From NCBI RefSeq assembly GCF_001884135.1, contig NZ_MAOC01000020.1:434001-498000 (forward strand): a DNA stretch of 64,000 nucleotides, given 5' to 3'. The position numbers were made by a program, and so were the translations under genes. The notes beneath the pieces are model-generated. The model ran no database searches. It was not told the DNA's origin and saw only the letters and a program-made list of their open reading frames with translations. Shown here piece after piece: positions 487 to 62,260 of the stretch (positions within the stretch are counted from its first letter, which is position 1; every line of letters begins with the position of its first letter). This stretch comes from Bacillus nitratireducens (GTDB taxonomy: Bacteria > Bacillota > Bacilli > Bacillales > Bacillaceae_G).

Positions 487-2715
487 TTAAATCACTCTAT
501 CGTAGTCATTTGATTTAGGCAGAGAAGCTGCTTTTTTCATAAGCACTTCCCATAAGTGTACGGATGTCTTCCATTCGGCGGCGGCCTGTTCCTTTTGATA
601 CATAGCGTTCTCATAACTGAAAGTAAGTTGTTGCATATCAGCCGAGTTGTAAAGTGTATCGATGTGAAGAGCGTATTCTCGGAATGTTTGACTTTCACCC
701 CGCGGTATGCCGATTCTCGCAAATTGTTTTAAAAGTGCACCGTAAGCTTTTCTATAAACAGCATCATCTTTTCGATATTTATAGAAAAGAATAATAAAAA
801 ATGTAATCCATTTCATTCTTGTGGTGAAGAGAATGTATCCTATGATACTAATCGGTATCGCAGAGAGGAATACGTACCACCAAGAAAAATCATTTTTAGA
901 ATTTGTGATCTTTTTAGTAGAGGCTTCTTCTGTATCTTCTATTAAACTTTTGAGCTTCGCTTCATTGTTTCTTTGGTGCATTTGCTCGTTTTGAGAATTA
1001 GTTTCTTCGCTATTTTGAAAAGTAGGAGCAGGAGTATTATTTGTAAAATTATAGGGATTGGTAAATCCTTTTGTTGGTTCGAATGGAATCCATCCGTATC
1101 CAGGAAAATATACTTCGACCCAAGAGTGTGCGTTATTGTTTTCGATTTTATAAACATTCTCACCTTCTGTACTAACAAGTGTATTCTCAAGAGTTCCTTC
1201 TGTATAGCCTTTTACCCATCGAGCGGGAATCCCGGCAGAACGAAGTAACACGATCATAGACGTCGAAAAATTATTACAGTAGCCGCTTTTTGTATCGAAA
1301 AGGAATTGATCTACATAATCTTGGTTTTTGGCAGGAATCATCACATCCGTTGTTTCGTATACAAAAGAATGGTCTGTGAAGTAATTTTCAATAGCTAATA
1401 CTTTATCATATCGGTTGTCTTTATCATTTGTAAGATTAACAGCTAAGTCTCTTACTCGCTGCGGTAATGATTCGGGAAGTTGTGTGTACTTTGTCATGAA
1501 ATAAGAATTTGATTCTTGACCTTCATTCGTTTTTGTTGCTTTCAAGTTTTCTATGGAAAACTCCGGGATCTCATATGTTACTTTATATGAATTTAAAGTA
1601 GTAGAAGAGTCTCCGTGCATCGTATAGATTTTTTCTGAAAATGGGTCAACGCTGTATGATACATCAGAAGAAGCCTCAACTGATACTAATCCTGTTGGAT
1701 AGGTAAGGTGAGAATAACTTTTTTGCATGGTGATTGTTGCTTTGGCTGTTTCTGTTTTTGTATTTTTTTCGTACCAACTCACGACGTCGTTTTTATTTTT
1801 AAAAGAAACCTTTTTCGGATTTTCAGAAACCTCCCAGCCTTTTCCTGTATAAAAATCTTTTGTTTCTACTCTCCAATATTGTTTGTTTTGCGTTTGTGCT
1901 GTAAAAACAATTGTATTATCCGCCTTAAAAGGACCACCTAATTGCGAGTCATCTAAACCATACCCAATTTTAGAAACTTCTTGTTCTTTACTTGCTTCGG
2001 ATGTGTTGAATTTTAAAAAATCCATTGGGTTTGGCCATTGAGGGCCAAATTTTGGAGCGAAGTATGCGATAGTTGCTGACAATACAATAAATATTGTAAG
2101 AGGTCTAAGTAATTTTGAGATTACTCTAGCATAATTTTGTAAGTGTTCCATCTCTTTTATTCGTTCTATTTGAAGAAGACTAAGCATAAAAAAGCCGATG
2201 ACAACAGTACGAATAATAGCGTAGTTTGCATTGTATAAATGTAAGTTATGAAAAGTTATGATATAAATAATAGTCAATATAAGAAATAACAACCCGCGTT
2301 TTTTATGAATCATCCAAAAAAAGATGAAAGAACTCAAAAACCAAAATGATAAAAAAAATAAAAGTGTTGGAAAAACTGGAGAAATATCTAGCAAATTCCC
2401 TTGAAATAACAGGGAGGAATTTCGAGAAATATCAGAAAAAAATTTCGTTAGCCAAGATGGATTTATAAAAGCATTTTTATAATACAGGAAATGAATGATG
2501 AATAAGATCGTGACGATCTTTATTGGAATTTGCCACCTTGTTTGAAAAAAAGAGAGAGTGAAGCAAATTCCTATAAATATTACAAAAATATCTAATCTAC
2601 CTACGTTTGTAATACCTATAAGGGGTCTTAGCCATTCTAGTAAAAGTAGAAGTGCACATACATGCATGAAGAATCTGCTCATATCCCATTTGTATTTTGT
2701 TCGTAATGTTATCAT
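487..2715 (-). CDS. yebA: TgpA/YebA-type membrane transglutaminase-like protein
   Basis: 742 residues. Hydrophobic membrane segments fill residues about 15-220 (DUF3488-like region). An extracytoplasmic part follows with a transglutaminase core: Cys480 in SGYCNNFST and His530 in NNAHSWVEVY. The third triad position is Glu546 (WIPFEPTKGF), where many relatives have Asp. A last membrane segment lies near residues 655-675, followed by a cytoplasmic tail. The start overlaps the end of the DUF58 gene by 4 bases (ATGA), so the two are translationally coupled. MoxR ATPase, DUF58 and transglutaminase-like genes form a widespread module thought to act in envelope protein assembly or modification; the substrate is unknown. 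The symbol follows B. subtilis yeaC-yeaD-yebA. Confidence 0.88.
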   Translation of the reverse strand: MITLRTKYKWDMSRFFMHVCALLLLLEWLRPLIGITNVGRLDIFVIFIGICFTLSFFQTRWQIPIKIVTILFIIHFLYYKNAFINPSWLTKFFSDISRNSSLLFQGNLLDISPVFPTLLFFLSFWFLSSFIFFWMIHKKRGLLFLILTIIYIITFHNLHLYNANYAIIRTVVIGFFMLSLLQIERIKEMEHLQNYARVISKLLRPLTIFIVLSATIAYFAPKFGPQWPNPMDFLKFNTSEASKEQEVSKIGYGLDDSQLGGPFKADNTIVFTAQTQNKQYWRVETKDFYTGKGWEVSENPKKVSFKNKNDVVSWYEKNTKTETAKATITMQKSYSHLTYPTGLVSVEASSDVSYSVDPFSEKIYTMHGDSSTTLNSYKVTYEIPEFSIENLKATKTNEGQESNSYFMTKYTQLPESLPQRVRDLAVNLTNDKDNRYDKVLAIENYFTDHSFVYETTDVMIPAKNQDYVDQFLFDTKSGYCNNFSTSMIVLLRSAGIPARWVKGYTEGTLENTLVSTEGENVYKIENNNAHSWVEVYFPGYGWIPFEPTKGFTNPYNFTNNTPAPTFQNSEETNSQNEQMHQRNNEAKLKSLIEDTEEASTKKITNSKNDFSWWYVFLSAIPISIIGYILFTTRMKWITFFIILFYKYRKDDAVYRKAYGALLKQFARIGIPRGESQTFREYALHIDTLYNSADMQQLTFSYENAMYQKEQAAAEWKTSVHLWEVLMKKAASLPKSNDYDRVI

Positions 2716-44431: not shown

Positions 44432-44477
44432 TTGTGTGAAAAGATGTATAATAAGCAATAATTAATTAAATATACTG

Positions 44478-44704
44478 TCGGTGATGAAGAGAGTAGTCTT
44501 TTTCAGAAGGAAAGCGAGCTAGGGGTGGTGTGAGCCTAGTGCGGAAGAAAAAGATGAAGCGCACTTCGGAGATGCTTCTTGAATGAATAGTAGAGTAAGC
44601 CGAGGCCCCCTGTCCTCGTTATAAACGGGAAAGTGGTTCGTAATGAACAACAAGGGTGGTACCACGGGTTAAAACTCGTCTCTTTTTTAGAGACGAGTTT
44701 TTTG
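44478..44704 (+). promoter_or_regulatory. T-box riboswitch, Arg specifier, upstream of argS
   Basis: The leader begins near GATGAAGAGAGTAGTC. The likely specifier is CGC (Arg) at 44560-44562 in the context GAAG-CGC-ACTTCGGAG. The T-box sequence AGGGTGGTACCACG is at 44653-44666; its variable base T would pair with a discriminator A. A terminator, ACTCGTCTC/GAGACGAGT followed by a T-run, closes it. Uncharged tRNA-Arg should stabilise the antiterminator and allow transcription of argS. Confidence 0.92.
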
Positions 44705-52967: not shown

Positions 52968-53067
52968 TTGTATAGAAATAGATAAAAAGGATATAAATAA
53001 AAATATATTTTGAATTAGTTGACAATTAATTGCCCAATGGCATAAAATAACTTTTAATAAAGTATAC

Positions 53068-53327
53068 AAATCTGAAGACGAGAAAGAGTAAAACAGTGAA
53101 CTGTTCTCCAGAGAGCCGGTGTATTGCTGAAAGCCGGTGTGCAGACGTTATTTGAAAATCATCTCCGAGGAGCCGTGGCTGAATAAAGTAAGCTCGGACG
53201 GATGTCTACCGTTACAAAGAACGCGTATGTTAGTACGTTGCTAAGTGCTATTAGCGAAGAGCTAATAGAATTAGGGTGGTAACGCGGTTAAACCCGTCCC
53301 TACTTCATAGGGACGGGTTTTTTGTGT
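53068..53327 (+). promoter_or_regulatory. T-box riboswitch, Ile specifier, upstream of ileS2
   Basis: Stem I begins near GAAGACGAGAAAGAGTA. The specifier is ATC (Ile) at 53158-53160 in the context GAAA-ATC-ATCTCCGAG. The T-box AGGGTGGTAACGCG is at 53273-53286, and the terminator AACCCGTCCCT/AGGGACGGGTT with TTTTT follows. Transcription of ileS2 should rise when tRNA-Ile is uncharged. Confidence 0.94.
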
Positions 53328-60188: not shown

Positions 60189-60639
60189 CTCCTTTGGTCA
60201 GATTAAAATTTACTTTTTCACATTTCTATATATATTTGGATAAACCTTCCAAAGAACGCCTTTGTTAATAAATAATTTATGTATCCGAGATTAAGGTTAT
60301 TTTCATTTGAAAGATCTTCAACATATACAAGGACACCTCGCTCAAATTGAACGGGTAAAGAAAGCATATCAAGAGAGCACAGTGACCTATTAACTCACGG
60401 AAGTGTCAGTTCCACTTTCTCTTTTATTAAGGTTATTAGTATCAATTTGACCAAGTTATGCTTCGAACTGCGGCTAACTTATAGGTAAAGTGACATATTT
60501 CTAAGCTGTCAAATGATAATTGTATAGAGTTCAATGTTCATATTACATATCTTTAGAAGGGGTTTGTTTAGTGAGAAATTGAAATATTTTTCTAAAAGGG
60601 CTTGCGTTTTATAAAGTAAAGAGATAGAATACTCTGTAA
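60189..60639. other. Intergenic region upstream of the aspS2 leader
   Basis: 450 bases without an intact gene. An open stretch at about 60308-60391 (YFHLKDLQHIQGHLAQIERV, ending STVTY before TAA) looks like the decayed end of a gene. The promoter of the T-box transcript should lie near 60600-60640. Confidence 0.4.
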
Positions 60640-60872
60640 ATATAAAAAGTGATGATCAGGAAAAGTACATGGTGCAAAGGTCTACAGAGAGCAATCGGTT
60701 GTTGAGAAGATTGCGATACCGCATGATGGAAAGACACCTGTGAGTGTTGCTTTGAACGTGATAATTAGTAAAAGCAAACGGTACCTACCGTTATCAGGGC
60801 TAAGATGGTCATTATGACAATTTGGGTGGTACCGCGGAAAATCCGTCCCTATTTATAGGGGCGGATTTTTGT
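60640..60872 (+). promoter_or_regulatory. T-box riboswitch, Asp specifier, upstream of aspS2
   Basis: Stem I starts near GTGATGATCAGGAAAAGTA. The specifier is GAC (Asp) at 60733-60735, in the context GAAA-GAC-ACCTGTGAG that matches the ATC and CGC contexts of the other two T-boxes here. The T-box TGGGTGGTACCGCG is at 60823-60836, and the terminator AAATCCGTCCCTA/TAGGGGCGGATTT with T-run follows. It should sense uncharged tRNA-Asp. Confidence 0.92.
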
Positions 60873-60897
60873 ATTCTTTGAAAGGAGGTGAGTGACC

Positions 60898-61002
60898 GTG
60901 GATGATGCCGATGACAACAACAATAACGTAAATAAAAATAAAATTAATGGAGGGAAATGTAATGGATGCAATAATGAAGCGTTCACTCACAAAAGAATGT
61001 AA
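60898..61002 (+). CDS. Asp/Asn-rich leader peptide before aspS2
   Basis: A GTG-started frame of 34 codons. GAAAGGAGGTGAG, a near-complete match to the 16S rRNA tail, stands about 5 bases before GTG. The product starts MDDADDNNNNVNKNKINGGK and ends NNEAFTHKRM; residues 2-17 hold 4 Asp and 7 Asn. The frame runs through the aspS2 ribosome site and start and stops 41 bases inside aspS2 in another frame. It lies just after the T-box terminator, so it is made only in read-through transcripts. A ribosome slowed on the Asp/Asn codons could change access to the aspS2 start. Role inferred. Confidence 0.6.
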   Translation: MDDADDNNNNVNKNKINGGKCNGCNNEAFTHKRM

Positions 61003-62260
61003 GGAACAAAGCGGAAAGGTTGTATTACTTCAAGGATGGGTAAAAAAGGTTCGTCATCTAGGTAATGTTAGTTTTTTATTATTACGGGACCGAACGGGAG
61101 TTATTCAATGTGTATTAGAAAACGGGTTAGCTGGATATAAAGTAGATGTGGAAAGTGTCGTTCAAATAGTTGGTCAAATAGTAGAGACTTCGAAAACAGA
61201 ATTAGGGGTTGAAGTGCTTGCACATGAAGTGAAAATATTAAATGGCGCAGAACCACTTCCATTTGAAATAAATAAAAAGAAGTTACAAGTTGGCTTAGAT
61301 CAACTACTGAATGAGCGGGTATTATCATTAAGACATGAGCGAATCGCGGCGATATTTAAAGTGAAATCTACACTTGTTCAGAGCTTTAGTGAATTTCTTA
61401 TAGAGAACGATTTCACACGTATATTTACTCCAAAAATTGTTTCGCAAGGGGCAGAAGGAGGAGCGAATGTTTTTAAGCTTCCATACTTCCAAAAAGAAGC
61501 TTATTTAGCGCAATCACCACAGTTTTATAAACAAATGATGGTAGCTGGAGGGTTAGAACGTGTTTTTGAAGTTGCACCTGTTTACAGAGCGGAACACCAT
61601 AATTCTTCCCGTCATTTGAATGAATATATATCGTTAGACGTAGAACTTGGATTTATTCATGATTTTTATGAAGTGATGCAATTAGAAACGGATGTTTTAC
61701 GATATATGTTTCAACAAGTAGCAAAAATCTGTGAAAAAGAACTACAACTATTACAAATAGAAGTACCTGTTATTACAGAAATACCTAAAATCACATTGTT
61801 AGAAGCACAAGATATTTTGAAAAATAAATACCGGAAAGAATCGCCGATTGGGGATTTAGATACAGAAGGTGAAAAGCTATTAGGTAAATATGTGAAGGAA
61901 ACATATAATAGTGAATTTGTCTTTATTACACATTATCCGAAAGAAGCGCGACCGATGTATACAATGCCGAATAAGGAGAACGAAGCCGAAACGGATTCAT
62001 TTGACCTATTATATAAAGGATTAGAAATAACGTCAGGTGCACAGCGTATTCATAATCATGAAATGTTACTCGCATCTTTTAAAGAAAAAGGATTACATCC
62101 AGAGAAATTTCAATCTTATTTAAATACATTCCGATATGGTTGTCCACCGCATGGCGGTTTTGGAATTGGATTAGAAAGGGTTGTATATAAACTTTTAGAA
62201 TTAACAAACGTACGAGAGGCGAGCGCTTTTCCGAGAGATTGTACACGTCTTATGCCATAA
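60962..62260 (+). CDS. aspS2: Aspartyl-tRNA synthetase, archaeal-type (AspS2)
   Basis: 432 residues from the ATG at 60962, 8 bases after GGAGG; an ATG five codons upstream lacks a ribosome site. The N-terminal OB fold is GKVVLLQGWVKKVRHLGNVSFLLLRDRTG. The class II core has FTRIFTPKIVSQGAEGGANVF (motif 1 region), FEVAPVYRAEHHNSSRHLNEY (motif 2) and GGFGIGLERVV (motif 3). The short length, without the large bacterial insertion, marks the archaeal/eukaryotic type, many of which charge both tRNA-Asp and tRNA-Asn. With GatCAB such an enzyme can supply Asn-tRNA. Confidence 0.92.
   Translation: MDAIMKRSLTKECKEQSGKVVLLQGWVKKVRHLGNVSFLLLRDRTGVIQCVLENGLAGYKVDVESVVQIVGQIVETSKTELGVEVLAHEVKILNGAEPLPFEINKKKLQVGLDQLLNERVLSLRHERIAAIFKVKSTLVQSFSEFLIENDFTRIFTPKIVSQGAEGGANVFKLPYFQKEAYLAQSPQFYKQMMVAGGLERVFEVAPVYRAEHHNSSRHLNEYISLDVELGFIHDFYEVMQLETDVLRYMFQQVAKICEKELQLLQIEVPVITEIPKITLLEAQDILKNKYRKESPIGDLDTEGEKLLGKYVKETYNSEFVFITHYPKEARPMYTMPNKENEAETDSFDLLYKGLEITSGAQRIHNHEMLLASFKEKGLHPEKFQSYLNTFRYGCPPHGGFGIGLERVVYKLLELTNVREASAFPRDCTRLMP

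Follow-up and report, generated by a model that had tools for sequence, protein, structure and literature searches.

The locus raises the question of why a predicted aspartyl-tRNA synthetase gene that already lies behind an Asp T-box should also be preceded by an Asp- and Asn-rich reading frame, and whether that frame could act as a second sensor of charged tRNA. In the window, by which we mean the whole 64,000-nucleotide stretch of Bacillus nitratireducens DNA that was analyzed, the features concerned all lie on the + strand. The T-box leader (RF00230) spans 60643..60853 and matches the Rfam model at 140.4 bits (gathering threshold 93), its specifier codon, GAC for Asp, is at 60733-60735 both by eye on the Rfam alignment and by pattern, and its intrinsic terminator, a terminator-like site from the terminator scan, is at 60837..60870. 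The features of the T-box class, a Stem I with its specifier loop, the antiterminator T-box sequence and a terminator, are all present. A Shine-Dalgarno (SD) sequence read from the sequence, AAAGGAGGTGA, follows at 60881..60891, and then comes the leader frame, which runs from GTG to TAA at 60898..61002 and would encode 34 residues (VDDADDNNNNVNKNKINGGKCNGCNNEAFTHKRM), with Asp at codons 2, 3, 5 and 6 and an Asn-rich part thereafter. A second in-frame GTG is possible at 60892, where the spacing to GGAGG is just 3 nt. The aspS2 gene occupies 60962..62260 (alternative start, ATG 60947), and its own SD, GGAGG at 60949..60953, is within the leader frame. The initial annotation had described, directly 3' of the Asp T-box terminator, a near-perfect SD and a GTG frame that has 4 Asp and 7 Asn among residues 2-17, is read in a different phase from aspS2 and stops 41 nt into the gene; we confirmed the placement, the counts and the overlap, the last being counted from ATG 60962. 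As a check on chance, we examined all starts in the window that follow an SD, 338 with both strands counted. Two of them have at least four Asp, or at least six Asp plus Asn, among residues 2-12, and both belong to this leader frame (60892 and 60898). Two other T-boxes of the window, at 44472-44686 and 53066-53304, lie within 20 kb of the aspS2 T-box and are followed by genes that we judged by eye to be argS and ileS; the short spacers of these putative argS and ileS T-boxes are without an Asp/Asn-type leader.

The match between leader and gene depends on what the enzyme charges. AspS2 of the window scored 620.8 bits against NF003483.0 and 445.3 bits against TIGR00458.1, both above the NCBIfam cut-off, and these two models (aspartate--tRNA(Asn) ligase) were above cut-off for the proteins P0002, P0003 and P0004. 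From its sequence, AspS2 is thus predicted to be a nondiscriminating AspRS, an aspartate--tRNA(Asn) ligase for which charging of tRNA-Asn is predicted. Since such an enzyme would charge both tRNA-Asp and tRNA-Asn, it matches the two codon types of the leader, in line with the earlier suggestion that the leader amino acids correspond to the enzyme downstream.

To see how widely the leader occurs, we compared 110 distinct aspS2 loci, including the window, that were left after duplicates and weaker matches had been dropped. Genome contigs were scanned with AspS2, from which the best 80 of 590 relatives among the matches listed were taken, five loci came from viral contigs (distant AspRS relatives), and the others came from whole-genome searches of 6, 19, 397, 392, 193, 295, 34 and 43 genomes, in overlapping sets. 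A plasmid search for AspS2 relatives was empty, and no relative above 83% identity, B. cereus group included, was among the matches listed. The leader is present in 39 of the 110 loci, across genera, namely in the window, in 16 named Bacillaceae/Paenibacillaceae records and in 22 genomes from their families or orders, and one scan recovered it in all 39 loci listed beforehand and in none of the 71 others. The leader-less loci comprise 64 from the contig scan, which are mostly clostridial by title (L042 is labelled Lactobacillales, L060 Calditrichales and L067 Fusobacterium), four from viral contigs, L152 and L155, which were obtained by family searches that also yielded leader-bearing genomes, and L126, which was counted as leader-less but ends at a contig end. 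Among L001-L040, an Rfam T-box lies upstream of aspS2 in 16/16 leader loci and in 24/24 leader-less loci, and an aspS2 T-box without a leader is usual outside the leader-bearing group. The T-box sequence motif was found in all 39 leader loci, with a GAC specifier in 38 by pattern and in L145 by eye; by the same pattern, the leader-less loci gave GAC in six, AAC in three, GAT in one and AAT in one, with 13 unparsed and 47 of the 71 having no clear T-box.

On a quick protein tree of the 110 AspS2 sequences, arbitrarily rooted, the loci with a leader fall into two clusters, each of 19, with L122 on its own near the root, and the presence or absence of the leader amounts to four changes versus a shuffled mean of 32.2. 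A single origin with later losses is possible, and because the 39 loci share ancestry, their counts are not independent events. We also searched 595 genomes (296 and 299) with a strict DNA pattern of SD, start and Asp codons. It gave ten matches (8 and 2), nine at intact aspS2 by position and one at a decayed copy, L160, and the same pattern read backwards gave none. As the pattern is insensitive, finding two of six leader-bearing genomes in one set and missing G406, its restriction to aspS2 is limited to what the pattern can see. L160 (about 770-1820, minus strand) is, by eye, a broken second aspS2 preceded by an Asp leader and by what is left of a T-box, with no Rfam T-box above threshold, in a genome (G559) that also holds an intact aspS2.

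We then asked whether the leader frame behaves as a coding sequence. An SD-like site precedes the leader start at all 39 loci, scoring 6 in 35 of the 37 leaders scored and 5 in L138 and L139, and the start codon is ATG in 21, GTG in 17 and TTG in one. Codon 6 encodes Asp in every leader (GAT in 28, GAC in 11), Asp occupies codons 2, 3 and 5 in 35, 33 and 37 of the 39, and residues 2-14 are 72% Asp plus Asn, with 256 Asp, 107 Asn and 6 Glu over the 39 loci. Among 17 hand-chosen pairs of near relatives that do not overlap, codons 2-7 show 3, 4 and 25 differences at the first, second and third positions, respectively, corresponding to 22 synonymous versus 8 nonsynonymous codons (binomial P 2.7e-7). 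This pattern of substitution indicates that the leader frame is under selection as protein code. In the leader of L154, a 9-base unit that codes for Asp-Asp-Asn occurs four times in tandem.

From codon 11 to the aspS2 start, the leader frame has a stop in 1 of 496 codons, whereas the two other frames have 50 stops in 490 and 35 in 475 codons. In 38 of the 39 loci, the leader continues beyond the aspS2 start without a stop, where 12.4 would be expected from base-shuffled spacers; the exception is L135, with a leader stop 14 nt 5' of the aspS2 start. The phase of the leader relative to aspS2 is 0 in 6, 1 in 15 and 2 in 18 loci, and because the phase is free, the tail of the leader is kept open, but not kept as sequence. 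A programmed frameshift into aspS2 was rejected on the basis of the same phases. The six in-frame leaders (L005, L006, L144, L146, L154 and L156) have no stop before aspS2, and run-through there would give an N-terminally extended AspS2. Transcription attenuation 3' of the leader was also considered and rejected for the window, where a scan of 60200-61100 found no + strand terminator-like site after 60870.

Comparison between loci revealed a feature that is absent from the initial annotation, a long-range helix. One of its strands reaches from the leader SD to the leader start, and the other is made up of early aspS2 codons around a conserved R-x-L/R-V-x motif. In the window, the 5' strand lies at 60888..60899, from the end of the leader SD to base 2 of the start codon with 60896 unpaired, and the 3' strand lies at 60979..60990, in aspS2 codons 6-10 (K-R-S-L-T) with 60982 unpaired. 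The local RNA structure of the window stretch taken alone is unremarkable (z -0.80), and the helix was recognized only through the comparison. The duplex energy averages -22.2 kcal/mol for cognate versus -17.1 kcal/mol for swapped partners, and 0 of 100,000 clade-level permutations (11 clades) reached the observed mean; the own aspS2 is the best partner in seven of the 11 clades, and the other four pair equally well or better with another clade's aspS2. At 36 of the 39 loci the helix is stronger than synonymous aspS2 recodings at p<0.05, the exceptions being the window (p=0.052, at -16.5 kcal/mol), L133 (p=0.178) and L135 (p=0.874), where the motif lies beyond the stretch used in the recoding test and a longer stretch pairs at -18.2 kcal/mol.

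For covariation, two alignments were anchored on the R-x-L/R-V-x motif, with the helix register slightly different between the two groups. In A1 (20 rows, 16 distinct), 92.7% of cells pair and 24 are double-changed, either value being reached in 0 of 500 shuffles, slid controls pair in 33-49% of cells, and column pair 15/26 is unpaired in 7 of 16. In A2 (15 of 19 rows), 95.1% of cells are paired and 7 are double-changed, again with 0 of 500 shuffles reaching either. The number of pairs with double changes was not beyond shuffles, which were as high in 100/500 for A1 and 40/500 for A2, and neither were further pair types (68/500 and 249/500). The predicted helix probability is low in L003 (0.23), L008 (0.09) and L133 (0.17). 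Overall, the alignments and pairing energies argue that the helix is conserved and covarying. Its strands are formed by the leader SD and start and by aspS2 codons, with the aspS2 SD in the loop. As modeled, the helix would hide the leader start no less than aspS2, and it may or may not also hold aspS2 back.

Based on these comparisons, we consider it probable that the leader is a translated cis-acting peptide and a second charged-tRNA sensor after the T-box. In the first step, which follows the known action of T-boxes, transcription would continue past the terminator when uncharged tRNA-Asp occupies the GAC specifier, and in the second, ribosomes would initiate at the strong leader SD. When Asp-tRNA and Asn-tRNA are plentiful, these ribosomes would traverse the Asp/Asn codons and, as they encounter no stop, cover the aspS2 SD and start, occluding them, and when the leader start is without a ribosome, it could fold onto the early aspS2 codons. 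When Asp- or Asn-tRNA is short, ribosomes would halt on codons 2 to about 14, 5' of the aspS2 ribosome site, with an early-halted ribosome also covering the 5' strand of the helix, and aspS2 initiation would be free, so that halting would be the ON state and running the OFF state. The output would be more of the nondiscriminating AspRS, predicted to charge tRNA-Asp and tRNA-Asn. If a ribosome is assumed to cover 15 nt each way, one that halts when an Asp codon enters its A site would leave the aspS2 ribosome site (-18..+15) free in 256 of 257 cases, and for Asn codons up to codon 15 the site would be free in 102 of 117. The six in-frame leaders imply that occlusion cannot explain everything everywhere.

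The sensing proposal was also examined with a folding model, in which the mean cost of opening the aspS2 site drops by 2.0-3.9 kcal/mol when a ribosome sits anywhere on leader codons 1-15. In the window, a P site on codons 1-3 raises this cost by 1.4-2.0 kcal/mol, and the drop appears from codon 5 on. Because the mean cost falls for any blocked codon from 1 to 15, the folding model gives weak support; it is consistent with the proposal on average and has the opposite sign for early stalls in the window. The second, translation-level sensing put forward in the initial annotation is well supported by conservation (of the frame with its Asp codons, of the run-through without a stop and of the helix) and by the predicted identity of the enzyme, whereas translation of the leader, a rise in aspS2 upon halting and a sensing role of the Asn codons are inferred.

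A more elaborate version, which we put forward tentatively, is a two-tRNA cascade in which the T-box would read tRNA-Asp at the level of transcription, the stop-less leader would read Asp- and Asn-tRNA at the level of translation through run-through occlusion, and the helix would provide mutual control. With the same reserve, the leader could be viewed as the bacterial equivalent of an upstream frame that overlaps its gene, and the helix as a link by which the start of the leader and the coding region of aspS2 regulate one another.

An unlikely but serious alternative, or else a modifier of the proposed sensing, is that the Asp run acts through its acidity, a poly-Asp N-terminus slowing or destabilizing the ribosome (intrinsic ribosome destabilization), relieved by EttA, so that the leader would sense the state of the ribosome or Mg2+ and not charging. 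According to PMC11282234, E. coli ribosomes pause or drop off at acidic residues near the start of a peptide, and such residues are active in the MgtL leader. The Asp run of the aspS2 leader begins at codon 2, giving the acidic first codons of the MgtL type. Yet the acidic residue in residues 2-14 is Asp and seldom Glu (256 versus 6), neutral Asn (107) is interspersed with and follows it, and Asp and Asn are the enzyme's amino acid and that of its predicted second tRNA. Furthermore, the leader sits behind an Asp T-box, and the strict pattern matched aspS2 copies only.

Simple positive translational coupling, which the initial annotation had offered as another option, now seems improbable. Here, leader ribosomes would melt the helix and be required for aspS2 translation, giving a boost when the tRNAs are charged, and the 3' strand does lie within early aspS2 codons that leader ribosomes in most loci reach or pass. 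Translational coupling normally relies on a stop near the next start, whereas 38 of the 39 leaders have no stop before the aspS2 start and their phase is free; in addition, the sign would be contrary to need, and the helix also closes the leader start.

We regard it as very unlikely that the leader is essentially an mRNA stabilizer, with exonucleases blocked close to the 5' end of the processed T-box mRNA by the strong SD or by a ribosome that has halted there. SD-based mRNA protection is a known principle (STAB-SD), and the SD score of 6 in nearly all scored leaders would suit it. It leaves unexplained the conserved start codon, the Asp codons with free third positions and the covarying helix, and the leader start lies 68-260 nt past the T-box motif, at most 81 nt in only 22 of the 39 loci; a stabilizing effect could be additional to sensing. 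An N-terminal extension of AspS2 is highly improbable, as is a chance A-rich frame, because the leader is in frame with aspS2 in 6 loci versus out of frame in 33, and conservation and the codon pattern argue against chance.

A leader peptide placed after a T-box has a published precedent. In B. subtilis rtpA (yczA, anti-TRAP), a T-box is followed by a Trp leader peptide, and transcription and translation both respond to uncharged tRNA-Trp, translation doing so via tRNA-dependent ribosome stalling (PMC11255114, PMC4027176, which cite Chen and Yanofsky 2003 and 2004 as the original work). The series arrangement is therefore already known, and the novelty claimed for it in the initial annotation holds at most for synthetase genes. 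Both systems have an amino-acid T-box, a leader peptide with cognate codons 3' of the terminator, and then the gene. In rtpA, the gene encodes a regulator and the amino acid is Trp, whereas aspS2 encodes a synthetase and its leader has Asp and then Asn codons. The rtpA leader presumably ends just 5' of the rtpA ribosome site, whereas the aspS2 leader passes the gene start in 38 of the 39 loci and, unlike rtpA, has a covarying helix that joins the leader start and the gene. As far as the literature searched goes, it would be new that the gene encodes a synthetase, that the codons are those for Asp and Asn, that the leader overlaps the gene by run-through and that a helix joins the two; among the titles listed from the open-licence literature, none concerns a leader peptide at aspS2. 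In the main text of the T-box survey PMC2494555, aspS occurs once (C. acetobutylicum) and the phrase leader peptide is absent.

Other systems share parts of this arrangement. The erm and cat genes are controlled by translational attenuation, with a leader frame, drug-induced stalling and a helix that hides the gene's SD; aspS2 resembles them in its leader frame, the proposed stalling and a helix involving the leader, but its helix would hide the leader's SD and start while the aspS2 SD is in the loop. In E. coli trp and pheST attenuation, an amino-acid-rich leader peptide is followed by a terminator, and pheST, like aspS2, has such a leader before a synthetase; those leaders act on the 3' terminator, whereas the window scan found no such site. 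Control of the Asp/Asn charging route by a T-box is shared with the genes of tRNA-dependent amidation in Clostridium acetobutylicum, to judge from the titles of Saad 2012 and 2013 (via PMC4206432), the latter of which describes one T-box binding two tRNAs. There, a single T-box with two codons would serve, whereas at aspS2 the second sensor would be a translated leader, and the clostridial aspS2 loci in the leader-less set of 71 all lack an Asp/Asn leader. A class I LysRS T-box in B. cereus is, by the title of PMC2916919, partly induced by reduced tRNA-Asn charging.

If the sensing proposal is true, this would be, to our knowledge, the first pair of T-box and leader peptide on a synthetase gene and the second natural case of the rtpA logic, which would make tandem sensing by transcription and translation a recurrent design. 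The conserved Bacillaceae/Paenibacillaceae element could be used for testing how cells read the two tRNAs of one nondiscriminating enzyme, and the aspS2 leader would be a test case for occlusion by an overlapping stop-less leader.

T-box elements also occur in other combinations around aspS2. In L014 (2854-3062) and L028 (2887-3092), a second T-box lies directly 3' of aspS2, and in L038, L056, L058, L061, L070 and L072, which are leader-less and mostly clostridial by title, two T-box antiterminator motifs stand in series 5' of aspS2.
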